Shown: piece by piece, positions 3,613 to 22,212 of the stretch | Numbering within the stretch: position 1 is the first letter of the stretch | Layout of the letters: each line of letters begins with the position of its first letter | Source: Desulfatitalea sp. BRH_c12 | Lineage (GTDB): Bacteria > Desulfobacterota > Desulfobacteria > Desulfobacterales > Desulfosarcinaceae | Direction of reading: 5' to 3' | Length of the DNA: 60,258 nucleotides | Assembly: GCA_000961655.1 (NCBI GenBank) | Contig: LADR01000043.1 | Span: forward strand, 1-60,258 | Notes under the pieces: model-generated | Databases searched by the model: none | Seen by the model: the letters and a program-made list of their open reading frames with translations, nothing else | Told to the model about the DNA's origin: nothing | Program-made: the position numbers and the translations under genes

Positions 3613-4146
3613 TTACCCCTTCTTTCCGCGTCGCTTAAAGATCATCACCGGTGCCGCGTTTCGCTCCCTTTTTTGCCCTTTGATGATCCGGTCTTGCATT
3701 TCAATTGTGCGGGTATGCTTGCTGATGTTTGCCTGTGCTTCAGCAAGTTTTTGTTTTGTCTCAGCCAATTGTGTCTCTAATTCTTTTATGCGATGCTCCA
3801 ACGTTTTGCCGCGACGGGATTCCCCGTCTTCTTTCAGCGGAATAATTTTTCTGGCACATCCGTCTGGGTGAAACTCTGGCGTTTTCAAAGAGGAATGAAG
3901 GGGTATGGACTGAGTTGCCTTAGCGATATGGTTCTTTTTAAACGAGTAAACCACAGGCCTTGAATTGATAAGCTTGCGAGCCTGTCCTTTTTTAGTCAGG
4001 GTCACCATCGCATTGCGAGCATACTGTATCTCGTTGTCCTCGATCCATCTAAGGGCGGACATCAGCTCACTTACAGTAAACCCGGTCTTTGTCTTTTCTA
4101 TGTTATTCCCTGCTTCGATGAGTTGGGATATTTTTGTCTTTGCCAT
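3613..4146 (-). CDS. Hypothetical basic coiled-coil protein (177 aa)
   Basis: I do not recognise this family. It has a strong ribosome site (AGGAGG, 6 bases before the ATG), so translation is credible. Residues about 1-70 look like a small helical/winged-helix module (FTVSELMSALRWIEDNEIQY ... VTLTKKGQARKLI) and the region around residues 115-150 is a heptad-rich coiled coil (LEHRIKELETQLAETKQKLA). The C-terminus is strongly basic (KRRGKKG). This layout, winged helix plus coiled coil plus basic tail, suggests a nucleic-acid-binding dimer, but that is inference. It lies alone between two decayed kinase regions. Confidence 0.55.
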   Translation of the reverse strand: MAKTKISQLIEAGNNIEKTKTGFTVSELMSALRWIEDNEIQYARNAMVTLTKKGQARKLINSRPVVYSFKKNHIAKATQSIPLHSSLKTPEFHPDGCARKIIPLKEDGESRRGKTLEHRIKELETQLAETKQKLAEAQANISKHTRTIEMQDRIIKGQKRERNAAPVMIFKRRGKKG

Positions 4147-4619
4147 AGATCCTCCTACCTTGAGCTTTAGAGTAGCAATGTCTAACCCACCACAGTCGCT
4201 AACTACTACTCTTTTTTGGTTTGCGGTACAAGGCTCTTTTTGCGGGAACTGCTGTTGCTTGTAGTCATCTGCCGAATGCCCTAAGATTGCATGGGGCTTC
4301 TCGGTTTGCTGGGCGATGGACGAATATGTTTTTGATGTAAAAACATAATTATTTAATTAAATAAGCCAGACTATAGGCAATCTCCCATCTGATCCAGATT
4401 GCCGAATAGGCGCATTGCTCAAATTTTCCATAGATTGGCTTTTCGGTATGTAAGCTCAAGATACTGATCGGGTTCACGTCGTGGGCATAACTTGGATCGA
4501 TATATGGCGCAGCATCTGACGGAGGCCGCATCCGCTCCATGATTACCACCCCTTCAATGCCCCACCAATAAGTAAGCGAAGAATAAAAAAACGGTGCTGA
4601 ATGCTCTTTGATGAATTCC
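4147..4619. other. Intergenic stretch without recognised gene
   Basis: Roughly 470 bases between the coiled-coil gene and the kinase remnant. Short open frames on the minus strand (such as 4349-4549) have no ribosome site and no recognisable similarity. I see no terminator or repeat. Confidence 0.4.
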
Positions 4620-5034
4620 TGTCCCGGTCCCTTTGTATTGGCTCGCCCGGCAGGTGCACCGAACAGTTTGGGTTACAAGTCGGGTTGGAAGCAAATGAAG
4701 AAGGCCAGTGGGGGACCAGGCTCTGAAGATGTTTTGTTCCGTGCCCGTGCAGGAGTTCTTATTCAACATCGTAAAGCACGCTGGTGTAAAAAGTGCACGT
4801 GTTGTCCTCTCGGACTACGAAAAAAGGTTAGTACTCAACTGTAAGTGATCAGGGTAGGGGGTTTGATCCCGAAATTCTGGATTTAACCCAAAAAAGCTCT
4901 GTCTCGGCCTTCTGAGCCTGCGAGAGCGTGCCCATTATACTGGTGGAAATCTGGTGATCAATAATATCCCGGGGAAAGGCTCTCGCTTCACTCTTGCGGT
5001 TCCCCTCAACTTTTCCAAATTTCGTCCGGCTCAA
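4620..5034 (+). pseudogene. Histidine kinase C-terminal remnant (HATPase)
   Basis: Pieces in shifting frames reproduce the end of the intact kinase at 5861-8704. VQEFLFNIVKHAGVKSARVV near 4752 parallels VQELLLNVVKHAGVKSAQIA there, and LLSLRERAHYTGGNLVINN near 4905 parallels LLSLRERASYIGGHLFIES. The remnant ends VPLNFSKFRPAQ with a stop at 5032-5034. At least two frame changes separate the pieces, so it cannot make a working ATPase domain. It is followed by a decayed response regulator, giving the same gene order as the better-preserved pair downstream: a duplicated two-component module. Confidence 0.75.
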
Positions 5035-5097
5035 TAGGCCTTGGCGGAAGGGCCGATATTGACAAAAAACTCGCGGGTTCCGTCTTTAAGGAGGGAA

Positions 5098-5445
5098 GCG
5101 TTTGCTGTTTGCCGACGACCATGAGGTCATGCGCAAAGGCCTTATCAGTTTGGTGGCCGGTCAGCCCGATATTCAGGTGGCCGGGTGAAGCGGCAAACGG
5201 GCGGGAAGCCCTCGAGCTTGCCCGGCAGCTCCGCCCGGATGTGGGTCGTGATGGATATTTCCATGCCGGAGATGGACGGTAATCGAGGCCACCCGTCGGA
5301 TAGGCTGAGTTACCCAATGTTCGGATAATGCGTCGTCGATGCACCACGATGAACAGCTTACTTTGATGATGCGTCATGCTGGCGCGGATGCTTTTCTGAA
5401 CAAAACTGCACCTTCGGCGAAACTGCTGAGGGTAATCTACGGTAT
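5098..5445 (+). pseudogene. Response-regulator receiver domain, decayed (copy A)
   Basis: The plus strand reads LLFADDHEVMRKGLISLVAG then QPDIQVAG, the start of a NarL/FixJ-type receiver domain with the DD acidic pair. After a frame change comes a piece resembling ALELARQLRPDV, MDISMPEMDG (phosphoacceptor Asp region), and later MRHAGADAFLNKTAPSAKLL (the conserved Lys region). At least three lesions interrupt it and no DNA-binding domain follows. It was presumably the partner of the kinase remnant just upstream. Confidence 0.7.
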
Positions 5446-5860
5446 TACTAACTCGACGGGCGCTTAAAAAGATTCCACTCTGGAATCGGAATAAGGTTTT
5501 CCGTATCCAGCCAATCGATCACCAGAGGGTGCGTTTACCCCCACAGGCAAGACCGAATCGGACGCAAGCGGACCATCTATGCCAATCTTTATGTTCGATT
5601 AGCGACCTGTTTGGATATATTGTATTATTCATCATCCTTGAATGATTGTTTTTTGGTCCGATTTTATGTAGCTAATTAGACCAAAACTTCTTCATGCCCA
5701 GATATTCTGGAGGATAAATTATGCTTGAAATTTTATCCAATGAATCCAACAAACTAAAAGGCTGCTTGCTACGCGAAGAATCGCGCGAAACGTCAGCGAT
5801 ATGTAATTGATAGCGATAGAAATGTGACCGGCAAACTGTAAAATAAAGCGAACCATTCCA
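5446..5860. other. Gap with no recognised gene
   Basis: About 415 bases between the decayed regulator and the multi-PAS kinase. It is more AT-rich than its neighbours from 5610 on and probably holds the promoter of the kinase gene, but no clear -35/-10 pair or repeat could be fixed by eye. Confidence 0.35.
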
Positions 5861-8704
5861 ATGTGCTCCAAAATTCAACTCAGTGAGATTTTTCAGTCGC
5901 TGCGCAAAAGGGCCAAGCAGATTGTGCAAGAACAGAGGTCCGCGGCACGCCCAATGGGCGATATGGATCTGAAACGCTTGGCCGACAAGGTTGAAGTTCA
6001 AAGTGCCGAACTGGAATTGCTAAAAAAAAGGCTACGCCGCAGGACCCAGGAACTTGAGCAATCGCGCAATGATTGTGCGGACCTGTTTCAATCCGCGCCG
6101 GTGGCCTTTGTTATTGTCAATTCAGGAGGTATTATCGAGCAGGTCAACACGGCGGCCGCAAAGATGCTGGCCGGCTCGGATGGTCTCCTGGTGGGCCAAC
6201 GCTTCGATAACTATGTTCATCCAGATGATAAGCCTGCTTATTTCGCCTATACCCAAGAGCTGGCTTTGCATTCAGTGGCCACCCCTTGTGAATTGCGGCT
6301 CGTCGGCACCCGGGAAGGGTGCGTTCACGTAACGTTGGCTGCCGCTGCCAATAAACCCGATCATGCCGGCAGCTGCCTTCAATGGCGTCTATCCTTAGTG
6401 GATATCACCGAGCGAAAGCATGCCAAGCAAGCCCTGCAGGACAGTCAGCAGCGTTACCGCCTCGCCGCCACGGCGGGCAGGATCGGCGCCTATTCACGTC
6501 ACCTGCAATCTGGTATTGATTACTGGTCGCCGGAGTTTCTGGATATTTATGGATACGGCCCGGATCAAACACTACCCCTGAGTGACGGAATTCCAGCAGC
6601 AGTCCACCCTGATGACCGCCGGCGGGTTCTTGCCGAGGCTCTTGCCCGCATTGATCGCAAAACCGCGCCTGAATACAGCAGTGAGCATCGGATCATTTTG
6701 CCCAGTGGTGACGTCCGCTGGGTGATGATCCGCGGGCGCTTAGAATTCGACCTTCAGGGTCGACCCTTGCGGTCGCATGGGATTGCCATGGATATTACCG
6801 AGCACAAGCAGGCGGATGAAGAGCTGCTGAAAAGCCGTTTGCGATTGGAAGCGGCGCTGCAGATCGCCCGGCTGGGCATCTGGGAATACAACCCGGATAC
6901 ATCCGTTACAATGCTCGATGATCGCTGCTGCGCGATATTCGGTCTCGAAAAGCGTGCAATGACGAATAAAGAAGTGTTCGATAGGATACATCCTGAGGAC
7001 CGCACCCGCGTTGAAGGCGAAGTACTTGCAGCGCTAACCTGTGAAGATAGTGGCGGGTATGATACCGAATATCGTATCATTGTGCCAGACGGAACGCATC
7101 GGTGGGTTGCCGTATGCGGAAACGGCATATGGTCAGGTGAAGGCATCGGCAGAAAGGTCGTCCAGTTTATAGGAACCGCAAAGGATATCACCGAATACAA
7201 ACTGGCCGAGGAGAACTTACAAGCAAGCACTTCACGGCTTATCGAAGCCCAAAGGATCGCGAAAGTAGGAGACTGGGAGTGGGATCCAGATAAAGGTACT
7301 ATCTTCTGGTCAAAAGCGGTGTACGATATTTTCGGAAGGAACCCTGCACTTGCGCCTCCAACTCACCAGGAACACCCACGATATTACAAAACAGATAGTT
7401 GGGCGCGTCTGGAAAGGGCCCTGAAAGCAGCGTTGGAATCTGGCAAATGCTATGAACTCGAACTGGAGCATATTCGCGAGAATGATACTTGCGGCTGGCA
7501 TATAGCCAAGGGGGAAGTTCTGCGGGATAATGCCGGGCGCATAACAAAATTGCGGGGCACAGCACAGGATATTTCCGAGCGCAAAAACATGGAGGAGACT
7601 CTGCTCCGGCGTGAAAGGCAATTTCGGGCTCTCGTTGCAGCCAGTTCGGAAAGTTTGTATCGTATGAGCCCGGATTGGAGCGAGATGCGCCAGCTTCAGG
7701 GCCAGGGGTTTCTTGCCGATACTCAAACGTCAGACCCCAATTGGATGCAAAAATACATCCATCCGGATGATCAGCCGCAAGTGACAGCCGTTATCAGTGC
7801 GGCAATTCAGGCACAGAGCACTTTCAACTTCGAACATCGGGTCCGCCGGGCTGACGGCAGTTTGGGGTGGACGCATTCGCGTGCGGTTCCGTTGCTAGAT
7901 GAAAATGGCGAATTGGTTGAATGGTTTGGCGCTGCCAGCGACATTACTGAACGTAAAAAAGCCGAGGAATCCTTGCGACATCTAAACGAAACGCTTGAGC
8001 AGCAGGTGGCTGATCGTACCCAGCTGGCCGAATCGCGCGCCCGGCAACTCCAGTCTTTGGCAGTAGAGCTGATCGAAGCTGAGGAGCGGGAACGCAAGCG
8101 GATTGCCGAGTTACTGCATGAGGACCTGCAGCAGATTCTGGCCAGCGCCCGTCTGCAGTTGCAAGCGGCCGGCGCAAACGCGCCTCCCGCATCTATGCTG
8201 GAAAGTGTAGAACGGTTGCTCGCGGCCTCTATTGAAAAGTCGCGCAGCCTGTCACACGAGCTAAGTCCTGCGATCCTGAATCACTCCGACCTGATTACCG
8301 CCCTGCGATCGTTGCCATTGCGGATGGCCGAACAGTTCGGATTGTTCGTCAAGCTGAAAACCAGCGGCCGACAGCCATCTGTAGACACGCCCATAAAGAT
8401 ATTTGTTTTCCGGGCCGTGCAGGAGCTTTTGCTCAACGTCGTTAAACATGCCGGCGTGAAAAGCGCCCAAATCGCGTTTTCTGCTACCGAAAAAGACATT
8501 GCTGTCACTGTCAGCGACGATGGCCAGGGGTTTGCCCCCACCATTCTCGATACCGCTGTCGTAAAAAGCGGCCTTGGTCTGTTGAGTTTGCGCGAACGGG
8601 CCAGCTATATAGGGGGCCATCTGTTCATTGAAAGCGCACCAGGGCAAGGCAGCCGCATCACGCTGATGATCCCGCTCGCACTTGCGAGCGTCGAAGGGCC
8701 TTAA
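5861..8704 (+). CDS. Multi-PAS sensor histidine kinase (HisKA_3/NarX-type)
   Basis: A 947-residue sensor kinase without obvious membrane segments, so probably cytoplasmic. After an N-terminal coiled coil it holds about five PAS repeats (roughly residues 66-185, 195-318, 325-450, 455-580 and 585-710), each closing with a D-I-(T/S)-E-(R/H/Y)-K linker such as VDITERKHA. A second coiled coil leads to the dimerisation helix RIAELLHEDLQQILA with the phosphoacceptor His near residue 752, typical of the HisKA_3 (NarX/UhpB) class, and an HATPase domain with SDDGQGFAP and GLGLLSLRERA. The natural partner would be a NarL-type regulator; the one directly downstream is decayed. The start is uncertain: no good ribosome site precedes ATG 5861, and Met32 is an alternative. 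Confidence 0.88.
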   Translation: MCSKIQLSEIFQSLRKRAKQIVQEQRSAARPMGDMDLKRLADKVEVQSAELELLKKRLRRRTQELEQSRNDCADLFQSAPVAFVIVNSGGIIEQVNTAAAKMLAGSDGLLVGQRFDNYVHPDDKPAYFAYTQELALHSVATPCELRLVGTREGCVHVTLAAAANKPDHAGSCLQWRLSLVDITERKHAKQALQDSQQRYRLAATAGRIGAYSRHLQSGIDYWSPEFLDIYGYGPDQTLPLSDGIPAAVHPDDRRRVLAEALARIDRKTAPEYSSEHRIILPSGDVRWVMIRGRLEFDLQGRPLRSHGIAMDITEHKQADEELLKSRLRLEAALQIARLGIWEYNPDTSVTMLDDRCCAIFGLEKRAMTNKEVFDRIHPEDRTRVEGEVLAALTCEDSGGYDTEYRIIVPDGTHRWVAVCGNGIWSGEGIGRKVVQFIGTAKDITEYKLAEENLQASTSRLIEAQRIAKVGDWEWDPDKGTIFWSKAVYDIFGRNPALAPPTHQEHPRYYKTDSWARLERALKAALESGKCYELELEHIRENDTCGWHIAKGEVLRDNAGRITKLRGTAQDISERKNMEETLLRRERQFRALVAASSESLYRMSPDWSEMRQLQGQGFLADTQTSDPNWMQKYIHPDDQPQVTAVISAAIQAQSTFNFEHRVRRADGSLGWTHSRAVPLLDENGELVEWFGAASDITERKKAEESLRHLNETLEQQVADRTQLAESRARQLQSLAVELIEAEERERKRIAELLHEDLQQILASARLQLQAAGANAPPASMLESVERLLAASIEKSRSLSHELSPAILNHSDLITALRSLPLRMAEQFGLFVKLKTSGRQPSVDTPIKIFVFRAVQELLLNVVKHAGVKSAQIAFSATEKDIAVTVSDDGQGFAPTILDTAVVKSGLGLLSLRERASYIGGHLFIESAPGQGSRITLMIPLALASVEGP

Positions 8705-10458: not shown

Positions 10459-11825
10459 ATGGTCAATTGTTGTGTATGAAGAATTTAGGCGGCGATCCGG
10501 TTTTCTTCAATACCATTGACAAACTTTACTCCTTTTATAACCTCAGCCAAGCGCTCAGGTCGATGCAGCCGAATCCATCTTTTCTGAGCGCATTCGCATA
10601 ATTTGAAAGCCATTGTTAAGACGGTATTCGCAGAAAAGCAGCCTCTTACTTTGTTTGTCCGGAGCCGAACCGTTGCAAATGTTGATTCAATAGGGTTGGT
10701 GGTCCTGATGTGCCGCCAATGCTCAGCGGGAAAATCATAAAAAATCAACAAAGAGCTATGGTCTTTTTGCAGACATTGAGCAGCTTTCGGATATTTTGCT
10801 TCATATGCGTTCACAAAGCTCTTAAAATACCGTTCTGCTTCTTCCCGATTTTCGGCCTGCCAAATCTGATGCAAGTGGGATTTCGCTTTCGACTGAAGGC
10901 TCTTTGGGAGATTGTTCAATACATTGGCGGTCTTATGAACCCAGCATCGTTGGCATTTGGACATCGGAAATACCTTGCCAATTGCTTTCCAGAAGCCCAG
11001 TGCGCCGTCCCCGACCGCAAGCCGCGGACCATTGGCAAGGCCCCTGGATTTCAGGTCTATAAGAAGCTGCGACCATGACAGCTCGCTTTCGCGAAAACCA
11101 CCCTCTATAGCTACCAGCTCTTTTTCGCCTTCGACGGTGGCTCCTACGATCACCAGAAGGCATTGTTTATCATCCATGCGAACGTTGCAGTAAACTCCAT
11201 CGACCCAGAAATAGACATGCCGTTTGCCTGACAGATCGCGCCTTTGCCATTGCTCATATTCATGTTGCCATACGGTTTTGAGTCTACTGATCGTTGCTGC
11301 AGACAAACCCGGTGCTTCTTGGCCAACCAAGGCGGATAAGGCATCGCCAAAATCGCCGGTGGAAACGCCCTTCAGGGGAAGCAACTGTTCCATGCTCCGA
11401 GTTTTACGCAAATACGGAGGCAATATGGCAGAACAAAAATGCACCCTTTTCGATGCCTTCTGGTGACGATCCCTTATTCTTGGTGCGCTTGCCGGTATTG
11501 GGCCAATGCCGGTCTGAATCTGGCGTTCAGGCAGATAGCCATTGCGGACAACCCTTTGATGCCCCTGTTGATCCCTTAGTTCTTTGTATTGATTAAGAAA
11601 TGTTTCTATTTCGGTCTCCAGTGCCTGGGCTAACAAGTTCCTGGCTCCTTGGCGTAAGATCTGAGAAATAGGGTCGTCAACAAAGGTGTCTGGTTTTTTG
11701 ATTTCGATTACGTTATCTTTGCTCATGGTGCGTGTATCCTTTCCATTTCGGTGGCCGGTAGACTGTCGGGAAACAATCAACCGGAGGATACACCACCTAT
11801 TTTCCTAAACACAACTTTCGATCAT
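10459..11825 (-). mobile_element. IS256-family element, copy 2 (complete)
   Basis: Complete element with both ends inside the window. The left end reads ATGGTCAATTGTTGTGT; the right end, read inwards on the other strand, reads ATGATCGAAAGTTGTGT, an imperfect inverted repeat of about 17 bases. Those boundaries were set by where copies 1, 2 and 3 stop matching. I could not find a convincing 8-9 base target duplication, consistent with an old insertion or later rearrangement. Confidence 0.8.
10485..11726 (-). CDS. IS256-family transposase, 3-residue deletion
   Basis: Paralogue of the transposase at 5-1255, starting at the equivalent MSKDNVIEIKK (an in-frame upstream ATG at 11780 would add 18 unrelated residues and lies in the IS end). 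The DDE motifs WVDGVYCNVR, VGDGALGFWKA and NPIESTFATVR are all present. Relative to copy 1 it lacks three residues (WLY) in the stretch MEQLLPWLYLKGVSTGDF, an in-frame 9-base loss in a conserved helix, so activity is uncertain. Sequence divergence from copy 1 is spread along the gene, so these are different isoforms, not recent duplicates. Confidence 0.88.
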   Translation of the reverse strand: MSKDNVIEIKKPDTFVDDPISQILRQGARNLLAQALETEIETFLNQYKELRDQQGHQRVVRNGYLPERQIQTGIGPIPASAPRIRDRHQKASKRVHFCSAILPPYLRKTRSMEQLLPLKGVSTGDFGDALSALVGQEAPGLSAATISRLKTVWQHEYEQWQRRDLSGKRHVYFWVDGVYCNVRMDDKQCLLVIVGATVEGEKELVAIEGGFRESELSWSQLLIDLKSRGLANGPRLAVGDGALGFWKAIGKVFPMSKCQRCWVHKTANVLNNLPKSLQSKAKSHLHQIWQAENREEAERYFKSFVNAYEAKYPKAAQCLQKDHSSLLIFYDFPAEHWRHIRTTNPIESTFATVRLRTNKVRGCFSANTVLTMAFKLCECAQKRWIRLHRPERLAEVIKGVKFVNGIEENRIAA

Positions 11826-12087
11826 ATCTCCGCTAAAGCGCTCTCTGCGGCAGATCTTTTTTGTTCTCAAGCCCCCGTGGAAGTTTCTGCTTATATTAAC
11901 GGACATCGCTGGCGATCTCCTTAATCACACCGAAAAGCCTCAGAGTCCTACTGTCGAGGATTTGTGCGACGGATATCAACAAACTCCCAAAAATGAGGGG
12001 CTACATCACATTGAGCATTTATTTGTGGCCCTGCTCACAATATTGATTAAGCTTTTGAACCGAACAGAGCCACTGTGATAAAGGATC
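11826..12087. other. Intergenic between IS256 copy 2 and HU gene
   Basis: About 260 bases. No open frame with a ribosome site and no repeat was recognised. Confidence 0.35.
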
Positions 12088-12369
12088 TTAACTGTTTATC
12101 CGAGCCCTCAGTTTTCCTGACCCTTTGAAGGTCACCACTTTTCTTGCATCCAGCATGAGTGTTTCGCCAGTTGCTGGATTCCGGCCTTTCCGTTGCGCTT
12201 TATTATGGACAGAGAATTTGCCAAAACCGGAAACGAGGATATCGTCGCCTGATGCCAGAGTGGATTTCATAATTTCTATTAGCACTTCAAGGATTTCAAT
12301 AGCTTGTGCCTTTGTATAACCGTTCTGATCCGTGAGGGATTTTATAATCTCGGCTTTAGTCAGTGACAT
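12088..12369 (-). CDS. HU/IHF-family DNA-bending protein (paralogue 1)
   Basis: A 93-residue member of the bacterial histone-like family, closest in look to IHF alpha. It has the N-terminal helices (TKAEIIKSLTDQNGYTKAQA), the GFGKF turn, and the DNA-arm signature GRNPATGETLML followed by the C-terminal KVVTFKGSGKLR. The start at 12369 is chosen because GGAG lies about 7 bases upstream and the family begins there; the longer open frame adds 12 unconserved residues. About 88% identical to the protein at 58167-58448. It could serve plasmid replication or transposition as an accessory bender. Confidence 0.93.
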   Translation of the reverse strand: MSLTKAEIIKSLTDQNGYTKAQAIEILEVLIEIMKSTLASGDDILVSGFGKFSVHNKAQRKGRNPATGETLMLDARKVVTFKGSGKLRARINS

Positions 12370-12474
12370 ATCCACTCCATAGTTGAAATTCAATTTTGCA
12401 TTCATTGCCAGTCGAAAATTTATATGTCAAGAATTCAGTGTGTTGATAGCCATTGATTTTATGAACTGGTAGTC

Positions 12475-12960
12475 AGAGGACTACCAAAAAGGAAAAGCGG
12501 ACATTGTGGAAGTGCGCCCTGCTTCGAGATGAGGACCATGCTGTGGGCCAGTATCGTGCCAGCAGCCTGATGAAAAAGGCTGGCATTGCAGTCAAGCAAC
12601 GCAAACGGTTACCGATTTGCAGCAAAATGCATTGGAAGAAAGCCCGGCTGCAAAAAAATTTATACCGATAGTGCATCAGGGGTAAAGCCGAACGCCCGAC
12701 GCTCAATGAAGACCGGGGATTTATCCGCAAAGGAGATCGCCTGGTTGTGTGGCGGCTGATTCGGAGAGCGATTCCTTGGTTGAGGGGTCGAGGAAAACCG
12801 AAAGATCGGCTTCATTAATCTCCAGGAGGGGATCAACACTACAACCTTTTACGGGCGTTTGGTTTGGGCTCTCTCCGAATTTGAGCGTAACCTAATCAGG
12901 GAAAGGACATGAGCCGGGCTTGCCATTGGAAGGGATAGGGGCAGGATGAGTGGGTTTTTT
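12475..12960 (+). pseudogene. Chimeric remnant: IS3-type OrfB piece joined to serine resolvase
   Basis: The first part (QYRASSLMKKAGIAVKQRKR) resembles the helix-turn-helix region of IS3-family OrfB; it runs directly into serine resolvase/invertase sequence (alkGC region, ASGVKAERPTLNE, FIRKGDRLVVWRL, SLSEFERDLIRER-like end). Multiple frameshifts and stops break it. The catalytic N-terminal Ser region is absent. The same chimera with the same junction occurs at 58800-59310, so the fusion predates the duplication of this block. Confidence 0.7.
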
Positions 12961-13009
12961 GTTGAAAGCAGCTTTTTACCAATGGTAGGAAATGGAACCG
13001 GAGATGTGA

Positions 13010-14600
13010 ATGGCAAAGATGAAAAAGAACAATGACAAGGATGAGCCTTTAGAGAAGCAATTGTAGAAAGCGGCCGACAAGCTACGCAAAAATATCGATG
13101 CGGCCGAATACAAACACATCGTGTGGGGATTGATCTTTCTACGATATATTTCGGATGCCTTTGTTGTATCAGAAATTGAAGAGCGGCGAGGGGGAATATG
13201 TCGGGGCTGATCCGGAGGATAAGGACGAGTACAAGGCGGAGAATATCTTTTTCGTGCCCGAGGTCGCCCGTTGGTCGTTTTTGCAATCCAGGGCCAAGTT
13301 GCCGGATATCGGCAAGAAGGTGGACGAGGCCATGGATGCCATTGAAAAGGACAACCCGTCGCTCAAGGATGTGCTGCCCAAGGTGTTTGCCCGGGGCAAT
13401 CTGGACCCCACCAACACTTGGGTGGGTTGATCGACCTGGTGGGCAACATCGCCCTGGGAGAGGCCAAGGACCGCAGCGCCGATATGTTGGGCCACGTGTT
13501 TGAATATTTTTTGGGGGAGTTTGCCCTGGCCGAGGGCAAAAAGGGGGGACAGTTCTATACGCCGAGCAGCGTGGTGGAACTGCTGGTGGAGATGCTGGAG
13601 CCTTACAAGGACCGGGTGCTTGAGCCTTGCTGCGGTTCGGACGGCATGTTTGTGCAGCCGGAAAAGTTTGTGGCTGGCCACCAGGGCAAGGTGAACGACA
13701 TCTCCATTTACGGCCAGGAGAGCTACCACACCACCTGGCGCTTGTGCCCGCATGAACCTGGCCATCCGGGGCATCGACAGCTCCCAGGTCAAGTGGAACA
13801 ACGAGGGTTCCTTTTTAAACGACAGCCACAAGGATCTGAAGGCCCAATTATGTGATCGCAATCCGCCCTATAACGACATCGATTGGAGCGGGGACCAACT
13901 CAAAACAGACGGACGCTGGAAACACGGCACGCCGCCCGCCGGCAGCGCCAACTACGCCTGGATTCAACACTTCCTCTACCACCTGAGCCCCAGCGGTCAG
14001 GCCGGCTTTGTGCTGGCCAAGGGATCGCTCACCTCAAAATCCTCGGGCGAAGGTGATATCCGCAAATCCCTGATCGAAGCCCGCCTGGTAGACTGCATTG
14101 TCAATCTGCCGGCAAAACTCTTTTTGAACACCCAGATTCCCGCCTGTCTCTGGTGAGACGCAACAAGGCCAATGGCAAGTTCCGCAACCGGATCGATGAA
14201 ATTCTTTTCATCGACGCACGCAACATGGGCCACCTGATCAATAGAAGGACCAAGGAGTTTTCCGACGAGGACATCGCCGCCATTGCCGGCACCTATCACA
14301 ACTGGCGCGCAACCCGGACGGTGACTATGAGGATGCCAAAGGGTTTTGCAACTCCGCGTCCATCGGGCGGGTGCGCGAATTGGACTATGTGCTCACGCCG
14401 GGGCGCTATGTGGGCTTGGCCGATGAAGAGGATGATTTCGATATTAAGAAGCGGTTCGCCCAATTGAAAGCGGAGTTTGAGGCGCAGTTAAATGAGGAGG
14501 TACGATTGAACCATGGTAATTTTGGAGAATTTGGGGAAGGTGAAGATCGATGGCTAAAATCGAGGTCCAGGGTAAAGAAATTACCGTCATTTAAACAGAT
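13010..14600 (+). pseudogene. hsdM: Type I restriction-modification methylase HsdM, multiply broken
   Basis: The frames add up to an HsdM N6-adenine methyltransferase: start MAKMKKNNDKDEPLEKQL, TAG at 13064 where family members usually have Trp, then [20 protein letters not shown], a frame change near 13155 ([20 protein letters not shown]), another near 13425 ([20 protein letters not shown]), SAM-binding motif I as [10 protein letters not shown] near 13625, a frame change near 13745, catalytic motif IV as NPPYND near 13863, and further breaks near 14156 and 14310. At least five lesions mean no active enzyme. No hsdS or hsdR is present. Confidence 0.88.
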
Positions 14601-14958: not shown

Positions 14959-14980
14959 TGGGCAGATCAAGTTTTATGTA

Positions 14981-15009
14981 TTGCTTACGGCCGATTAGCG
15001 GGATAACAT
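14981..15009 (+). promoter_or_regulatory. Possible promoter of the peptide/radical SAM cassette
   Basis: TTGCTT at 14981-14986 and TAACAT at 15004-15009 are separated by 17 bases and sit about 60 bases upstream of the peptide start. The -10 is only a moderate match, and another pair (TTGATG with TAATAA, further right) is possible. It lies just past the KilA-N remnant. Confidence 0.3.
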
Positions 15010-15070
15010 TATGCAATGTTGATGCTATTTTATAGCAAAAGTAATAATAACATGAAAGGAGGTGAAAAAA

Positions 15071-15187
15071 ATGAGTTACCAAAAACCTGTAATCTTGGCA
15101 CAAGGTACTGCACAAATGGCAGAATGTAGACCGAATAGTAAACCGAGTGGGAGACCTTGTAAACCACCGGGGCCAAGCGGCCGCTAA
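15071..15187 (+). CDS. Candidate RiPP precursor peptide (38 aa)
   Basis: A very short gene with an ideal ribosome site, AAAGGAGGTG at 15055-15064, six bases before the ATG. It encodes 38 residues: a leader-like MSYQKPVILAQGTAQMAE and a core-like C19-R-P-N-S-K-P-S-G-R-P-C30-K-P-P-G-P-S-G-R38. The core has two Cys ten residues apart (positions 19 and 30), many Pro, and basic residues throughout, with no acidic residue after E18. KP-x-I/V-L near the N-terminus is a common leader pattern for peptides handled by PqqD-type recognition domains. It is followed by a terminator-like hairpin and then the maturase. The link to the maturase is by position; precursor identity and modification are inference. 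Confidence 0.75.
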   Translation: MSYQKPVILAQGTAQMAECRPNSKPSGRPCKPPGPSGR

Positions 15188-15204
15188 GTGGACAATTTTA
15201 TCAA

Positions 15205-15245
15205 GGGCGACCATGCTGTACAAATAGCATCGTCGCCCAATTTTT
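15205..15245 (+). terminator. Intrinsic terminator/attenuator between peptide and maturase
   Basis: GGGCGAC (15205-15211) pairs with GTCGCCC (15232-15238), then after one mismatch ATGCT (15213-15217) pairs with AGCAT (15226-15230) around an 8-base loop, followed by AATTTTT. The stem is 12 pairs with a U tract, 17 bases after the peptide stop and 16 before the maturase start. Partial read-through would give many peptide copies per enzyme, the arrangement known for many RiPP clusters. Confidence 0.82.
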
Positions 15246-15260
15246 GCGGAGAATATCGCG

Positions 15261-16745
15261 ATGTATTTTAAGCAAAAATCAAGTATTATATTCAGAAATT
15301 ATGAGTCTTTTGGTTATATAACGGACAATCGAAATTTCGGGTATAAAAAAGCGGATAATAACGGAAATGACATTGGAGATAAAATTGTATCACAAAGCGG
15401 GGCAGTATTTTTGTCGGTTTTAGGTACAGAACCTCAAACGCTTGATGAAATCGCAAAACAAATAAATATGCATTTTACAAACGCAGACGTTGAAACAATA
15501 AAGAACGATGCTAGAGAATTTTATAGCATACTTGAGCAGGATGGATTTATTGTATCTGGGGAAACTTTACAGGAATGCGATGAAAAAGACTCGAGATTTT
15601 CGTATAGGAATTTGAAACCAAAAAACGAAATAAATACTTGTTATTATAATGCTAAAAGTCCTGAAAAGACCACACAGGAATTTTTAGATGAATACTTTCA
15701 AGACGAACCTCAGCTAACAAATTTACACATAGAAATTACAAGCAAGTGCAACGAAAGATGCGTGCATTGTTATATCCCACATGAAAACAAAGTAAACCAT
15801 ATCAAAACTGATTTATTTTACAGTATTTTAGAGCAATGTAAAGAAATGAAGGTATTGCATTTGACGCTAACGGGTGGCGAACCGATGTTGCACAAAAACT
15901 TCGTTGATTTTCTAAAAAAATGCAAAGATTATAACTTGTCTGTAAATGTTCTCAGTAATTTAACTTTACTAACCGGTGAAATTATTGAAGAAATGAAAGC
16001 AAATCGTCTTTTAGGTGTTCAAGTATCATTATACTCAATGGATTCCAAAATTCATGACACAATAACCCAAACAAAAGGAAGTTTTGAAAAAACTAAAAAT
16101 GCAATTTTGAAACTGAAAGAAAATGATGTGCCTCTGCAAATTAGCTGCCCAATAATCAAGCCAAATAAAAACTGCTATAAAGATGTTTTGAAATGGGCGA
16201 AAATACATAATTTCCATATTGGATGTGATTATATCATAATAGGAAGATGTGACTATACAACACAAAATCTGAGAAGTCGTCTATCAATTAATGATATCAA
16301 GGAAGTGATTAACGAAAAAATTGTTGATGAACCAAGATTTTTAGAATTGATGGAAAAGGAATCTGAGAAGAAAAAGAATATTACACCAGATGATATTGTT
16401 TGTAGCGTTTGTCATTCATCCATTTGTATAGCAGACAATGGAAATGTATATCCATGTGCTGGTTGGCAGGGTTATGTTGTTGGTAATGTAAACGAAACAT
16501 CCCTCAAAACCATTTGGGATAATTCAAAAAATGTACAATATTTGAGAGGATTGCGCAAACGAGATTTCCCAAAATGTATTGAATGTTTTGAAAAAGATTA
16601 TTGTACTATGTGTATGGTTAGAAATGCAAACGAACACCCTTTAGGAAATCCATTAGAAGTTAATGAATTTTTTTGTAATATAGCAAAATTATATAAAGAA
16701 ATGATACTTAATAGAAACAAAACTATAATTTTTCAGGGCAATTGA
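15261..16745 (+). CDS. Radical SAM/SPASM peptide maturase with PqqD-like domain
   Basis: A 494-residue radical SAM enzyme. Residues about 45-100 (SQSGAVFLSVLGTEPQTLDE ... FYSILEQDGFIV) look like a PqqD/RRE peptide-recognition domain. The [4Fe-4S] SAM-binding motif CNERCVHC (CX3CX2C) is near residue 168, followed by LTGGEPMLHKNF. The C-terminal SPASM region has paired Cys sets: CSVCHSSICIADNGNVYPCAGW and CIECFEKDYCTMC, with a late Cys in EFFCNIAKLY, for auxiliary clusters. Such enzymes install thioether, C-C or epimer changes on ribosomal peptides. GCGGAG lies about 9 bases before the ATG. The gene is far more AT-rich than its neighbours, a sign of recent transfer. No protease or exporter gene follows. 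Confidence 0.92.
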   Translation: MYFKQKSSIIFRNYESFGYITDNRNFGYKKADNNGNDIGDKIVSQSGAVFLSVLGTEPQTLDEIAKQINMHFTNADVETIKNDAREFYSILEQDGFIVSGETLQECDEKDSRFSYRNLKPKNEINTCYYNAKSPEKTTQEFLDEYFQDEPQLTNLHIEITSKCNERCVHCYIPHENKVNHIKTDLFYSILEQCKEMKVLHLTLTGGEPMLHKNFVDFLKKCKDYNLSVNVLSNLTLLTGEIIEEMKANRLLGVQVSLYSMDSKIHDTITQTKGSFEKTKNAILKLKENDVPLQISCPIIKPNKNCYKDVLKWAKIHNFHIGCDYIIIGRCDYTTQNLRSRLSINDIKEVINEKIVDEPRFLELMEKESEKKKNITPDDIVCSVCHSSICIADNGNVYPCAGWQGYVVGNVNETSLKTIWDNSKNVQYLRGLRKRDFPKCIECFEKDYCTMCMVRNANEHPLGNPLEVNEFFCNIAKLYKEMILNRNKTIIFQGN

Positions 16746-17083
16746 TAGAGCATTTTTAAATGTTCGGGCAAATTCCCGATAAATTGAACCTGTAAACGAG
16801 CTGAGATCATCTGTGTCATGATGCGGGTTGAGCACACAAAGGTTGGCCTATGGTAAGGGAGAGCCTTGCTTAAAACTGATGGTCAGGTGATCGCACGATT
16901 TTAAGACCATGCCATGTAGAGGCCATAAAGTTGACATAATATCATGCTCAAAATCTTCATAATGTTTTAATTATACAGTCATTTATGAAAGTTTACATAA
17001 GATTCCTTATCAGACGTTGTAGCTTGAAGTCCGACAAGGCCTTTTTGCACCTGGCCGTGCTCACGAAATCTTAATCACGCCCA
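16746..17083. other. Intergenic after maturase
   Basis: About 340 bases. A small hairpin (TCGGG/CCCGA, 16764-16779) lies just after the maturase stop but has no good U tract. Otherwise nothing recognised. Confidence 0.35.
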
Positions 17084-17872: not shown

Positions 17873-18346
17873 CTACTGAATTCTTTTCTTTAATCGTGGA
17901 TCAATATAAAGGCTTTGCGCTTTTCCTGTTTTTAGATCAGCAAAATCGGGGTGTAAAGGATTCAAAATGAAATTTTTATCCTGTGGCACTATTGATGATG
18001 GCACCTGCAATACCATGCTTTGTTTTTCATCTATCCAAATCCTTCCCATTTTTTGGGTTTGATCTGCGACTGGTAGGATTGACCAGTGGGTTGGCAGCGT
18101 TTCTTCTGGCCAAGCGATTACTTGGCTTTCTTCGAACGAGACAGGGATAGCTACGAAATTTTGGATATCTGCATCTTCATCCAGGTGCACGATCAGTTCC
18201 AGGATTGATAGGGACAGACTTTCGGCGGCATATACGGCGGAATATCCTGGTGGGTTCCAACGGCCACCGAACAATTTGGCGCCCTCGCCTGAAAAAGCGG
18301 TCGCCGCAAATCGTTTTTCAACGATGCGCCAGGCAGTGATTGTCAT
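17873..18346 (-). CDS. RES-domain toxin of a RES-Xre toxin-antitoxin pair
   Basis: A 157-residue RES protein. RES toxins act on NAD+ in the cytoplasm and stop growth. The family signature is visible: Arg in WRIVEKRF near residue 6, GGRWNPPGYSAVYAAES around residues 27-43, Glu/Ser in LSLSILELIVHL, and a late LNPLHPDFADL segment. Its ATG overlaps the stop of the upstream antitoxin by four bases (18343-18346), the usual coupling. It is intact and of normal length. On this plasmid the pair would act in maintenance; that role is inferred. Confidence 0.92.
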   Translation of the reverse strand: MTITAWRIVEKRFAATAFSGEGAKLFGGRWNPPGYSAVYAAESLSLSILELIVHLDEDADIQNFVAIPVSFEESQVIAWPEETLPTHWSILPVADQTQKMGRIWIDEKQSMVLQVPSSIVPQDKNFILNPLHPDFADLKTGKAQSLYIDPRLKKRIQ

Positions 18347-18747
18347 CCGGGGAAAACCCCATGCATAATGCGTCCCAAAAGAGTGATCACTTCCTGGGCG
18401 CCAAGATGAGTATCAGAATATTCAAGAGGTATTTTACCGCCCAGACCACGGGCAGGTTTTTTCAGCCACCTTTCAGCTTTTTGGGGATTACCAAATACAT
18501 CAACGGCCATATCGTAGACTTGTGCGACCTGGACGATGCGCTCAGATTCATCTGTTGCAAGCCTGCCTGTTATACGGCGCCGATCCAAAGTGCGCCTTGA
18601 AATCTGAACGATTTTTGATAGTGCATTATCAGAAACATTCAATTTACTTCGCAGCTGGTCAAATTTATCGGCGGGCAATCCTTGCTTAAGCTGGGAAATC
18701 AGCTGGTCGGTCGTAGTGGTCTTAAGGTTAAGCGATTGAATTTGCAT
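18343..18747 (-). CDS. Xre/MbcA/ParS-type antitoxin
   Basis: A 134-residue partner of the RES toxin. It has the helix-turn-helix KLNVSDNALSKIVQISRRTL in the middle and the C-terminal toxin-binding domain (DVFGNPQKAERWLKKPARGL, YSDTHLGAQEVITLLGRIMHG) typical of the DUF2384 family. The start at 18747 is chosen for its GGGGGT ribosome site and because the longer frame (to 18954) runs through the promoter and operator. The complex would repress the promoter immediately upstream. Confidence 0.9.
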   Translation of the reverse strand: MQIQSLNLKTTTTDQLISQLKQGLPADKFDQLRSKLNVSDNALSKIVQISRRTLDRRRITGRLATDESERIVQVAQVYDMAVDVFGNPQKAERWLKKPARGLGGKIPLEYSDTHLGAQEVITLLGRIMHGVFPG

Positions 18748-18763
18748 GATTACCCCCTTTATC

Positions 18764-18807
18764 TTGGCATTTGCCAATAATATATATGGCGTTTGCCAAT
18801 TTGTAAA
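18764..18807 (-). promoter_or_regulatory. Promoter and twin operators of the RES-Xre operon
   Basis: On the minus strand TTTACA (18802-18807) and TATATT (18779-18784) are separated by exactly 17 bases. Two related palindromes overlap it: TTGGCATTTGCCAA at 18764-18777, between -10 and the start codon, and TGGCGTTTGCCA at 18787-18798, in the spacer. Two matching inverted repeats on a toxin-antitoxin promoter indicate autoregulation by the antitoxin or complex. Confidence 0.7.
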
Positions 18808-19018
18808 GGGGAACGTACTGGAACTTGCACCTCCGCTCAGAAAATTCTTGGTGCCTCCTGGTCTTTTTGCCTGCAGATTTGCTTTTGTAGGCGGCGGCGT
18901 CTGTTTTAAAAGGGTGCACCGCGGGGCCTCGTGCTGGTTAGCCTTAGGGCGCATCCATTGTTGGCTATAGTTGACAACCGAAACTTAAGAAGCGGAGGGG
19001 GTTCAGGAAGAGTGCCGC

Positions 19019-20512
19019 TTATTTCGTCATTTCTTTTGACATAGAGAATCCTTTGCTTTTATCTGCGTCCTGGATTCTGAACCGCTGGACATCGACCGTT
19101 ATTGTTTTGGGTTCATAGCCTTCTTTTACCACTATGTCTCTTGCCCGCTGGGCAAGGTACGCCTCATGGCCCTTGCCGGAAGGGATGTTTTCCACAACTA
19201 CGGTTTTGAGTTTAGTTTTTTTTTCTTTGTCGAAGATATCAACCGTGTACCCGCTGGAACCGACGAATGCCTTGGCTTTTTTTAATGTTTCCATAAGGTA
19301 CTGTTCAGTGCGTTTTTCGCCTTTATGGTTTTGCCAATCAGTTCGTTCCGAGCGAACCCGCCCCTGGATGGTTGCATCATCCACGCCCCGTTTTAACAAA
19401 GCCATCATATAGGCGATATCTTGTTCCGATTCCCGGATCTTTCCACTGCTATCCACCCCTTTGAAATAGCTGTCCCGCGTGGGCAAGTCACCCCGATTGA
19501 GGATTTCCCCTAGCGGTGTATACACCGCCGTGTGTTTTTGCTCTTCCTTGCGGAGTTCTATAACCGGGACATTGGCCCTGCCCTGCCAGTCGACCCATTC
19601 CAGTTTGGCGAGCGGGTATCCTTGCCCGGTCCTATGCTTTTCCTTTCGGTTTCTAAAACCGGGAGCGCGTCCCCACCGGTGCAAGGGGGATGCGCCCGGG
19701 TCGGAGCGCATGTGTTTGAGCCAATGTTTTTTTTCATCAAGGGAAAGGGGCCGATCGCTTTTGACCCATACTTGGTAATTGTCCGGGCTGCTTTCGACCA
19801 CCAGGCGGCCGGGTTTCCAATGGCCATCGCTGTTTTTATGGCACCTGGAAAGCCCTTCCTTGTTTACATCGTCGTGCATCATGAAATAGGGTTCGTTTTC
19901 AAATTTGGGGCGGATGAATATGTGATGGCCCTTGGCGTTCATTGCCTTTAGATATCCAATGGCGTGGTCTTTTGCCTCCACAGCCCACACCTTGCCCTCT
20001 ACCTTTTGGGTGGCTTCTTTATAGACGCCCAGTTCGTATTGGCCATAATACTTGGCCAATTTATCCAGTACCACACTCATCCCTTTAAAACGGGCCGGAT
20101 CCTTCTCGTAGGTTCTGCCGTCACAATGAATGATTTTGCTTTGGTCGGATATTTTCGCCCATTTATTGGTTTCGCGCTCCGTCGCGATTTCCTGATAATA
20201 GCGCACCCACACATGATAGTTGCCCGCGTCATCCTCGATGACCAGGCGGCCGGGTTTCCATCGCCCTTCTATCCGGTGTTGCTCCAGATCCTTTTCAGGG
20301 AGATTTTCGTAGAGAGCATAAGAAGCGCGCGCCTCCTGCGCCACCCCGACATAGATTTGATCACTGGCGTTTAAGCACAAGCACGTGGATGTCATTTCGT
20401 CGGGATAGACGGTCGCAATCTCTCCGGTGTCTGATATAAGGCCATATCTTTCCCAGCCGCAAAAATAAGCGTCGAAACGTTTGCCAAATTTCTCCGCGGG
20501 ATTTTTGACCAT
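19019..20512 (-). CDS. RepB-type plasmid primase-like protein with duplicated domain
   Basis: A 497-residue soluble protein, last in the transfer operon. Residues about 215-330 resemble the RepB/MobA-type primase domain: HIFIRPKFE, GRLVVESSPDNYQVWVK, HMRSDPGASPLHRWGRAPGF and RNRKEKHRTG, where such proteins place their acidic catalytic and basic residues. A shorter related unit lies at residues about 80-120 (EGRWKPGRLVIEDDAGNYHV WVRYYQEI), suggesting internal duplication. Residues 345-497 are unrecognised. It would prime the complementary strand of transferred DNA. It starts 12 bases after the coupling-protein stop. Identification rests on motif pattern only. Confidence 0.65.
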   Translation of the reverse strand: MVKNPAEKFGKRFDAYFCGWERYGLISDTGEIATVYPDEMTSTCLCLNASDQIYVGVAQEARASYALYENLPEKDLEQHRIEGRWKPGRLVIEDDAGNYHVWVRYYQEIATERETNKWAKISDQSKIIHCDGRTYEKDPARFKGMSVVLDKLAKYYGQYELGVYKEATQKVEGKVWAVEAKDHAIGYLKAMNAKGHHIFIRPKFENEPYFMMHDDVNKEGLSRCHKNSDGHWKPGRLVVESSPDNYQVWVKSDRPLSLDEKKHWLKHMRSDPGASPLHRWGRAPGFRNRKEKHRTGQGYPLAKLEWVDWQGRANVPVIELRKEEQKHTAVYTPLGEILNRGDLPTRDSYFKGVDSSGKIRESEQDIAYMMALLKRGVDDATIQGRVRSERTDWQNHKGEKRTEQYLMETLKKAKAFVGSSGYTVDIFDKEKKTKLKTVVVENIPSGKGHEAYLAQRARDIVVKEGYEPKTITVDVQRFRIQDADKSKGFSMSKEMTK

Positions 20513-20523
20513 GACCGCCCTCT

Positions 20524-22212
20524 CTATTCTTCAGAATCGCTGAATTGAATTTCTAACTGATCCACACTTTCCCTGAGCCTTTGTTGCTGGGCGACAATAT
20601 TGGCGAGCACCAGGTCATTACGGAGCTCAAAGGGGCTGTGGATCGGTCTGGGCTTATCGTAGGCCCAGCGTGAAATCACGAAGTGATAATCGCGGAACTT
20701 CACAATGCCTGTCAGATCCGGAAGATTGGCAATGTCCGAGGGCAAGAAGAGCAACTCCTTTTTCTTTTGGTTGCGCAGGGTCGTGCCGTCTTTGTAATCA
20801 CTTGGTCCCATGCTCTGTGACCTTTCGATCTCGAAATATTCGGTTTCGCCGATGTTGTATTTGGCTTCCCGTTCCGCCGTTTCGCCGGAAAGGGCGAAGG
20901 TGATCCGGTTGCCCGGAGCGTTGTCGAGGGTTTTGAGCAGCTGCCGGCCATAGGTTTTTTCCATCTGACCATCATCCTGAATGCCGATAAAGGCCGAAAC
21001 CCCTTTGGAACGGCCTTTGGTCAACATTTTCACGATCGAGCTCATGCGCTGCAGGGATCCGAATTCATCCAGGAGCAGGTAGATTCTACGGTTCAGGTTG
21101 TCGGCCATGGAAAGCAGTTTGCGGCCGACCAGGTCAATGAACAGGGACAAGATGGGTCGCAAGGTCTCTTCCACATCCTCATAATTGGTGATGTAGATCA
21201 TCCCAGAGCCGTTGCTCAGCCAATGGGTGATTGCAAAATCGCCATGGGTATTTGCCATGTACTCAAAACATCGGGTGTATTGCATCATGACCGCCAGGAC
21301 GCTTTCGGCTTGGCGCGAGTTTTCGACATTCTGGGTGATATAGCGATAGCCTGCTTCACCGCCCTTTGTTTTTGCAAGGCGCTCGGACAACTCCTTGGCC
21401 TCGGCGGTGAGCATCTGCCAAAGGTGCAGGTTGCTGCGCATATCGTTCTGATACAGGTAATGCAGACAGCCGGCATAGACGCCACGGGCAGCATCATTCC
21501 AGAACGGATCGTTTGCAGAAATCGATGGCGGGACCAGGCTGGCGGCCTGGGCATCCACGTCCATATAGGTTGTCAGCTCATTGAAAACGTTCCACCCCAA
21601 AGAGCGGCGGTCCAGGGGATTGAAGATCAGGTCTTTTTGCGGATCGTAAAATTCGGTCAGATACTCCCCTTTATGGTCGTAAATGATGCCCTGGCCGCCA
21701 TTTTTCCTGATGGCTTTAACAATCTGGCGAAAGCACTGGGATTTGCCGGTGCCGGGTTTTCCGATGATCATGGTGGCCCGGTTTTCGAGGTCCACCGGCA
21801 TTTCGATCTGGCCGAACGGGATGGCGGTGGCCTGTTTTCGCTTTTTGATCTGTTTTTTCAGTTCCTCGGGGGTTATCAACCGCGCGCCGCGGATATGGCG
21901 TTTGCTGGATTGCTGCCTTGCCCGCTTTCGGAAGCCGATCAATGCGATGGGATAAAGGATGGCGGCGCCGATGAACAGTTTGAAATATGGCCTTTTGTTG
22001 CCATACTGAAGAAGATAGCGAATATTATTGGCTGTGACCGCAAGCCCGTTGTCTTTGGCGACTTTGCAGGTGAAGAGCGTCGCCAATAGAATAAAAAACA
22101 GCAAAATGACGACCGTGATGCGCAAATGCATCTTAAATTGCATGCGCAGCGCATTGGTCCAGGTTTCGTGCCCTTCATAGCCGCTATACTGTTCTTGATA
22201 GGCATCTTGCAT
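20524..22212 (-). CDS. virD4: Type IV coupling protein (VirD4/TraG-like ATPase)
   Basis: A 562-residue inner-membrane ATPase that links the relaxosome to the secretion channel. Two hydrophobic segments occur before residue 95 (VVILLFFILLATLF and LFIGAAILYPIALIGF). Walker A is IGKPGTGKSQ near residues 145-154 and Walker B is IYLLLDEFGSLQRM near 373-386; RSKGVSAFIGIQDDGQMEKT follows, as in the VirD4/TraD family. The C-terminus is acidic. Its ATG abuts the stop of the TraT-like gene. Length is intermediate between VirD4 (about 655) and shorter plasmid forms. Confidence 0.93.
   Translation of the reverse strand: MQDAYQEQYSGYEGHETWTNALRMQFKMHLRITVVILLFFILLATLFTCKVAKDNGLAVTANNIRYLLQYGNKRPYFKLFIGAAILYPIALIGFRKRARQQSSKRHIRGARLITPEELKKQIKKRKQATAIPFGQIEMPVDLENRATMIIGKPGTGKSQCFRQIVKAIRKNGGQGIIYDHKGEYLTEFYDPQKDLIFNPLDRRSLGWNVFNELTTYMDVDAQAASLVPPSISANDPFWNDAARGVYAGCLHYLYQNDMRSNLHLWQMLTAEAKELSERLAKTKGGEAGYRYITQNVENSRQAESVLAVMMQYTRCFEYMANTHGDFAITHWLSNGSGMIYITNYEDVEETLRPILSLFIDLVGRKLLSMADNLNRRIYLLLDEFGSLQRMSSIVKMLTKGRSKGVSAFIGIQDDGQMEKTYGRQLLKTLDNAPGNRITFALSGETAEREAKYNIGETEYFEIERSQSMGPSDYKDGTTLRNQKKKELLFLPSDIANLPDLTGIVKFRDYHFVISRWAYDKPRPIHSPFELRNDLVLANIVAQQQRLRESVDQLEIQFSDSEE

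Follow-up and report, generated by a model that had tools for sequence, protein, structure and literature searches.

A 38-codon gene and its radical SAM/SPASM partner: very probably a minimal peptide-modification operon carried by transposons, plasmids and phages

The window, a stretch of 60,258 nucleotides from Desulfatitalea sp. BRH_c12 (contig LADR01000043.1, positions 1 to 60,258), contains a 38-codon gene and, behind it on the same strand, a gene for a 494-residue enzyme of the radical SAM/SPASM type. A first-pass annotation, made from the letters alone, had proposed that the two genes encode the precursor and the maturase of a ribosomally synthesised and post-translationally modified peptide (RiPP). 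The locus raises the question whether so small a unit is a RiPP system and, if so, where its product would act. Both open reading frames (ORFs) were found, as was the ribosome binding site predicted for the shorter one (Table 1). The relatives of the pair make it very probable that it is a RiPP system, and one that appears in its barest form, since a peptide and an enzyme with a recognition domain are all that the loci have in common.

The pairing of the two genes was recurrent. A check set beforehand asked whether close homologues of the enzyme have a conserved small peptide as neighbour, and this was so in 23 of the 23 loci identified through the enzyme (the window, L007-L010, L012-L025, L029, L055, L045 and L048). 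The peptide was upstream of the enzyme in every case, which indicates an association beyond chance; L008, L009 and L010, among the 23, were near-copies (97-99% identical there). The peptide-first search of 393 Bacteroidales genomes gave seven matches, of which six were convincing and the weak seventh was dropped. The enzyme was present in all six, four of them already known (L015, L016, L017 and L019) and two new. The gap from peptide to enzyme was 73 bases in the window and 64-77 bases in 17 of the 18 loci measured; it was 266 bases in L029.

These loci were of diverse origin. A tblastn search of plasmids matched nine records: seven covered 98% of the enzyme with an identity of about 51%, and two distant ones were set aside. 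The seven (five from E. coli in PLSDB, one from Salmonella and one from Photobacterium damselae) were all conjugative and all carried an identical 38-residue peptide. A genome scan gave 17 loci, the close homologues being 14 (L012-L025) from eleven Bacteroidota metagenome-assembled genomes (MAGs), two Bacillota MAGs and one Pectobacterium. Viral contigs contributed L029 and L055, and whole-genome searches contributed L045 and the divergent L048. Distant radical SAM matches (L026-L028 and L030) and the plasmid matches H8 (L011) and H9 enter no count.

No third gene accompanied the pair. The neighbouring ORFs of at least 70 codons within 7 kb were compared all against all, a scope that applies to every statement on shared neighbours below, and no neighbour family occurred in all loci. 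The first-pass annotation had seen no protease or exporter near the pair, and this held across the family: no exporter, protease or immunity gene was common to the loci. A tetratricopeptide repeat (TPR) protein was encoded directly 3' of the enzyme in only three Bacteroidota loci (L017:9583-11379, L019:9503-11020 and L020:9502-11034); those of L017 and L019, the two that were scanned with Pfam, had a DUF2971 domain. In the divergent L048 (G971, complement 3915-7323), the pair was succeeded on its own strand by genes for a UvrA-like ATPase of 785 aa and another radical SAM protein, of 356 aa. UvrA-like proteins can give self-protection from DNA-acting products, so the UvrA-like gene would hint at a DNA target. 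The two genes followed the pair only in that locus and were not counted as parts of the system.

The core of the precursor was conserved above both its leader and the enzyme. The core consensus, CRPNSKPSGRPC[NK]PPxPxGR, was near-constant save in the most divergent members, while the enzymes ranged down to about 50% identity. Codon differences were summed over the 210 non-independent pairs formed by 21 sequences, each 38 codons long and the enzyme-less phage peptides included; those in the core comprised 1644 synonymous changes and 722 replacements, those in the leader 837 and 1306. In an alignment of 18 sequences, M1, Y3, P6, A10, A17, C19, P21, N22, S23, P25, G27, R28, P29, C30, P32 and P35 never changed. 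When divergent members and enzyme-less phage peptides were added (16 diverse sequences), Y3, P6, A17, C19, P25, G27, R28, P29 and C30 remained invariant. The two cysteines that had been remarked as lying 11 positions apart are C19 and C30. The stretch from cysteine to cysteine was shorter in L045 (CSPKPSGRPC), read CGDGPSGRPC in L048, where the tail was missing, and took the form of the peptide variant CRPNRRPCGRPC in L055. These divergent forms suggest that the kernel of the peptide is C...P[SC]GRPC. The leader had the motif Y-x-[KR]-P-x-[IV]-L-A-[QK]-[SG].

With E values up to 1 allowed, neither NCBIfam nor Pfam had a model that matched the precursor, in agreement with the earlier impression that it belongs to none of the named families. 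No PADLOC model matched it at 1e-5, the relatives from L012, L051 and L052 had no NCBIfam match at 1e-5, and six core strings did not occur in a full-text search of 5.39 million papers. The peptide gene is easily overlooked by annotation: none was listed under the seven of seven plasmid matches, in a gene table that is known to be incomplete.

Table 1. Positions of the pair and its parts in the window
Feature	Coordinates	Strand	Basis
Whole mobile unit	14970..16755	+	Stretch alignable with L014, from the upstream leader to just beyond the enzyme stop (blastn)
Ribosome binding site AAAGGAGG	15055..15062	+	Read directly
Precursor gene, 38 aa, MSYQKPVILAQGTAQMAECRPNSKPSGRPCKPPGPSGR	15071..15187	+	ORF; conserved in the 18-sequence alignment; leader about residues 1-18, core about residues 19-38
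Core CRPNSKPSGRPCKPPGPSGR	15125..15184	+	Putative leader/core border
Intercistronic stem-loop	15205..15238	+	Conserved stem; candidate attenuator or mRNA-protecting element
Radical SAM/SPASM peptide maturase, 494 aa	15261..16745	+	PF04055, PF13186; Foldseek SuiB and SkfB
PqqD-type (RRE) peptide-recognition domain, residues 45-97	15393..15551	+	PF05402
SPASM domain, residues 381-442	16401..16586	+	PF13186, E 5.6e-10

The Radical_SAM domain (PF04055) of the enzyme comprised residues 157-312. The cysteines of the CX3CX2C radical SAM motif (C163-C167-C170) were invariant in 18 sequences, as were nine C-terminal cysteines (381, 384, 389, 399, 439, 442, 448, 451 and 472). The suggestion of a PqqD-like N-terminal region was confirmed in the family as a whole, PF05402 being found in the N-terminal parts of 18 of the 18 members scanned (E <= 0.1; best E 3.5e-10). 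The window protein scored 22.7 bits over its whole length (cut-off 23.4) and 24.9 bits when only the N-terminal 150 residues were used. Two observations count against a recognition domain: the AlphaFold model was poor in the N-terminal part, and a PDB profile search returned no RiPP recognition element (RRE), the matches being Kirola (E 0.0004) and weaker unrelated proteins. The model, made from 16 sequences, had a mean pLDDT of 64.6, with ten-residue means below 70 within residues 1-140, and was used for the core fold only.

A Foldseek search with this model placed SuiB and SkfB at ranks 1-6, anSME from rank 7, and at rank 8 the sactipeptide-type maturase entry 5why, which we take to be CteB. 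Viperin, BlsE, PqqE and MoaA were among the weaker matches, and the TM-scores were moderate (0.4-0.5 by query length). SkfB was the top match in a search of PDB sequences. By fold, the subject of a second check set beforehand, the enzyme is thus closest to peptide maturases rather than to SPASM proteins outside RiPP synthesis, the matches to anSME, viperin and MoaA being weaker than those to SuiB and SkfB. Among the best 25 of 64 NCBIfam families, no cut-off of a named maturase was approached: the top match had 102.8 bits against a cut-off of 500, the SkfB model 61.4 against 300 and the PapB model 61.2 against 340. None of the best 25 families was above its cut-off for the divergent enzymes of L048 and L055. 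Membership in the viperins was rejected because the NCBIfam score, 56.2 bits where the cut-off is 180, came from the shared core only and because SPASM was present. The PADLOC models of the prokaryotic viperins (pVip) likewise matched the radical SAM core alone (residues 157-303, E 1.4e-18), whereas the enzyme considered here is paired with a peptide and also contains a SPASM and a PqqD domain. In L022 (2603-4085) the peptide gene was intact and the enzyme gene looked broken, its reading frame being open for 306 codons, from 3165 onwards.

A chemical role for the pair can be proposed from these features. The PqqD-type domain would bind the leader, and the radical SAM/SPASM part would oxidise the core, most likely forming thioether bonds from C19 and/or C30 to nearby residues. 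A cysteine cross-link in the core is probable, and the two invariant cysteines are compatible with a thioether of either the sactipeptide (C-alpha) or the ranthipeptide (C-beta/gamma) type. Sactipeptide and ranthipeptide systems (SkfB, AlbA, CteB, PapB) and the streptide system (SuiB) share with the pair a radical SAM plus SPASM enzyme, an N-terminal recognition domain and a short upstream precursor that bears cysteine. The present pair differs from them in that no equivalog cut-off is approached, in that the precursor lies outside NCBIfam and Pfam, in the lack of a common gene for export, proteolysis or immunity, and in its occurrence on transposons, plasmids and phages, with enzyme-less precursor genes on phages. 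Radical-SAM RiPP clusters of Bacteroidales have been surveyed (PMC10352776), and the part of that survey available to us did not describe this peptide-enzyme pair.

Between the two genes, the first-pass annotation had placed an intrinsic terminator. The hairpin was borne out, the stem of 8 pairs being kept in 17 aligned sequences, with at least one change on both sides in 4 of the pairs. A run of at least five T close behind the stem was present only in the window and L007-L009 (4 of the 17 aligned sequences, counted by eye). For most relatives a terminator is therefore a poorer reading than an attenuator or a structure shielding the end of the mRNA. The stem fits control of the peptide-to-enzyme ratio and may hold the output of peptide above that of enzyme. 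By eye, the same stem was not seen after the enzyme-less phage peptides or in L029.

The pair also had the marks of a unit that moves. The window aligned with L014 at 87-88% identity over 14970-15594 and 15435-16755 (blastn). The GC content of 14970-16758 was 0.33, compared with 0.51 and 0.50 in the flanking 10 kb and 49% in the whole window, as expected from the earlier remark that the cassette is far more AT-rich than its flanks. In eight loci measured, the GC content of the cassette was 0.31-0.38, and that of the remainder of the locus ranged from 0.33 to 0.66. Two of the plasmid loci contained the pair within Tn3-family transposons. Inverted repeats of 49 nt (94%) in L008, with no clear duplication, and of 55 nt (89%) in L007, with TATAT on either side, enclosed a Tn3-type transposase, a resolvase and the pair. 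The Tn3 and resolvase domains were shown in L008, and the L007 transposase, in two frames, was assigned by its likeness to that of L008. The pair thus qualifies as a Tn3-family transposon passenger in L007 and L008, both on conjugative plasmids, with the resolvase gene on one side and the terminal inverted repeat on the other, the same location as other passenger genes of this family; here the passenger is a peptide-maturase pair. The likeness of L007 to L008 was confined to 11744-13430, the passenger, which suggests transfer of the unit among distinct Tn3 elements. A full-text literature search found no paper joining a Tn3-family passenger gene with radical SAM.

Other observations concern the same carriers. 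The three enterobacterial records that were read were IncF-type conjugative plasmids, and tyrosine-recombinase-like genes were near the pair in L016, L018, L022 and L055. A partial second copy of the resolvase, 79-83% like the first, was present behind the enzyme on the enterobacterial plasmids (L009:4580-4889 and L008:13609-13918). The two ends of the L014 contig (5520 bp) shared the same 162 bases and divided the enzyme between them, which may reflect a small circle or an assembly effect. The varied neighbours had suggested an integron cassette. This was rejected, as the 61 attC-like sites of 20 loci compared with 50 in a single shuffled set and did not consistently flank the unit. An integron integrase was above cut-off in 2 of 15 genomes and never on the contigs of the pair: that of the L024 genome was on C5 and that of the window genome was at G000:C29:39686-40618 (407.6 bits).

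The distribution of the pair was patchy. With the query genome counted, it was found in 1 of 395 genomes of the host phylum, 2 of 395 genomes sampled from the phylum of L015 and 2 of 295 genomes of the Pectobacterium order; among relatives of the host it occurred in 1 of 40 genomes, the host itself. In the enzyme tree the window paired with a Bacillota-binned contig (100/99), followed by a Parabacteroides MAG and a Clostridiales MAG (100/100), a placement that speaks for lateral transfer. Binning errors are possible in MAGs, but named strains supplied the records of Pectobacterium, E. coli, Salmonella and Photobacterium.

Phages carried the peptide in two arrangements. The complete pair was present in L029 on a contig with a phage terminase gene; the same contig has two type II hammerhead ribozymes (Rfam RF02276) at 1-58 and 1018-1089. 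A degenerate DNA pattern, which would miss more divergent forms of the peptide, matched 21 stretches of the viral collection, of which 6 in frame were the six known contigs and 15 were out-of-frame chance matches. The enzyme was present in two of the six contigs and absent from four, which represent two phages. One of these is L051, a record of 93.9 kb with genes for a DNA polymerase, a DnaB-like helicase, Sak4 and a primase near the peptide. The other comprises L052-L054, 99.4-100% identical over shared DNA, with genes for a terminase and an HslV-type peptidase nearby (shown on L054). The whole records L051-L054 had no enzyme-family match at E 0.01 and may be fragments.

The phage peptide genes without an enzyme are apparently under purifying selection. 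Relative to the bacterial L017, the L051 peptide had 15 codons with synonymous and 2 with replacing differences (dN 0.046, dS 1.2), a pattern that speaks for long retention, perhaps partly spent beside an enzyme. The L052 peptide was less constrained, with 12 synonymous and 8 replacing codons relative to its nearest relative, L018. The L051 peptide ends in V, not R, and in L052 CITPS replaces CRPNS, at places that are otherwise nearly fixed.

Genes of defence-like type were near the pair at several loci: type I methylase and specificity subunits in L012, an NsnA/PD-T4-2 type in L013, a DUF4917 protein (PADLOC PDC-S21) in L014, caspase-like, weak ThsB-type TIR and Ppl-like genes in L015, Ppl in L016, and methylase pieces and a RES-Xre pair in the window. 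PADLOC families matched numbered 278 for 104 neighbour proteins from 12 loci and 110 for 93 control proteins from 12 regions, these being counts of families and not of proteins. Neither L014 and L023 nor the window nor any plasmid or viral locus contributed to the neighbour set, and one of the 12 control regions (L039) shares the contig of L017, about 7.5 kb away. Since controls matched as well, enrichment in defence islands was rejected as proof and kept as a hint.

The lack of a shared exporter, protease or immunity gene suggests that the product acts inside the cell. Carriage by transposons, plasmids and a phage, the defence-type company of some loci and the enzyme-less phage peptides would together make conflict with phages the likeliest field. 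In the reading that we prefer, a two-gene minimal RiPP operon moves between hosts, the product most likely remains inside the cell, and its main role would be to counter phages or other mobile elements, or to serve in contests with them. A phage- or element-related intracellular role is a tentative assignment, and the whole chain, from the minimal mobile operon through a cross-linked peptide acting in the cell to conflict with phages or elements, is also put somewhat below an even chance. What points to phage involvement is a single phage contig that bears the pair, two phages that have only the peptide, and neighbourhoods that are uneven.

There is a precedent of other chemistry for such a role. 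In a review (PMC12360287), lanthipeptides encoded in defence islands are described as acting against phage within the producing cell. Those of Streptomyces are of class I according to a second paper, in which viperins and lanthipeptides are mentioned (PMC12926258). The likeness is that of a modified peptide that acts in its producer and of genes in defence islands. The difference is that the anti-phage lanthipeptides depend on lanthionine formation and the present pair, known here from its genes, on radical SAM chemistry.

Several observations weigh against the preferred reading. The enzyme-less peptides represent only two phages, whose records are possibly fragments, and both peptide and enzyme were unmatched in 50,697 phage records. 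Most of the query was present in 0 of 5426 genomes of an E. coli collection, which may leave records out, and the pair itself was unmatched there; the resolvase part alone was matched, in 615 genomes. The L022 enzyme gave a tblastn match over residues 1-493 despite its open frame of 306 codons. Control regions of the same genomes matched PADLOC models. Of ten picked neighbours compared with PADLOC at 1e-8, four (one each from L012, L017, L024 and L025) had no match, and those of L018 and L021 had weak matches only. L019, L020 and L021 sit among genes that by eye look like housekeeping genes (LpxK and MraW models).

Other explanations have to be compared with an intracellular role in phage or element conflict. 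The modified peptide might be a bacteriocin, cut and exported by general host machinery, that kills competitors. Its basic, proline-rich core bears cysteine, its nearest maturases by fold and sequence include that of the sporulation killing factor, SkfB, and it is carried on conjugative plasmids, where many bacteriocins sit. Bacteriocins diversify, however, and it would be unusual for one to keep so similar a core from Bacteroidota to Gammaproteobacteria and two MAGs of Bacillota; a secreted product also leaves the enzyme-less phage genes unexplained, and the loci share no gene for export, cleavage or immunity. We consider a bacteriocin rather unlikely. A variant of the anti-phage reading, in which phages took the precursor alone as a leader-bearing counter-weapon with an altered core that would occupy the host maturase or become a product that helps the phage, is unlikely as well.

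A product made in the cell for its own economy, such as a redox cofactor, a metal-binding peptide or a regulator, comparable with those of PqqA/PqqE and mycofactocin, would agree with a single maturase, the lack of an exporter and a nearly fixed core, and the partial NCBIfam matches of the enzyme include PqqE and mycofactocin maturases, all far under cut-off. The very patchy occurrence given above argues against it, as does the lack of a shared partner enzyme that could use a cofactor, and we regard it as quite improbable. The pair might instead serve its transposon, plasmid or phage, either as an addiction-like, stabilising device or in competition between elements. It is the only passenger seen in the two Tn3-type transposons, apart from the partial resolvase copy, it is present on the three IncF-type plasmids, and PemIK, RelE-type and RES-Xre pairs occur near the cassette in some loci. 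No second gene is shared that could be an antitoxin, and the pair is also chromosomal, between housekeeping-looking genes, which leaves this explanation very improbable.

The pair would add to the radical-SAM RiPPs a family for whose peptide there is no NCBIfam, Pfam or PADLOC model and whose core of Cys, Pro and Arg is nearly fixed, in a compact unit of two genes and 1.8 kb. What is new here is that the pair occurs on a phage contig and, on conjugative plasmids, within two transposons of Tn3 type, that in several bacteria it has defence-like genes nearby, though the controls were not clean, and that two different phages have the enzyme-less peptide. The mobile carriage and the peptide-only copies of phages bear on two questions: whether modified peptides beyond lanthipeptides take part in bacterial immunity, and whether phages use decoy substrates.

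The surroundings of the pair in the window had been described as decayed DNA, and this was partly so. On the 5' side N6_Mtase (HsdM-type) matched in two separate pieces and KilA-N weakly in one, with a Mutator-type transposase farther away. On the 3' side were an HU-like piece and, at 17873-18954, a RES toxin domain with an Xre/MbcA/ParS antitoxin, close to the decayed type I restriction genes. A RepB-type primase and, by eye, a coupling-protein-like ORF of conjugation type occupied 19019-21744, so the pair in the window is near genes like those of a plasmid or an integrative and conjugative element. The window genome looks like that of a dissimilatory sulphite/sulphate-type organism, with dsrA well above cut-off.

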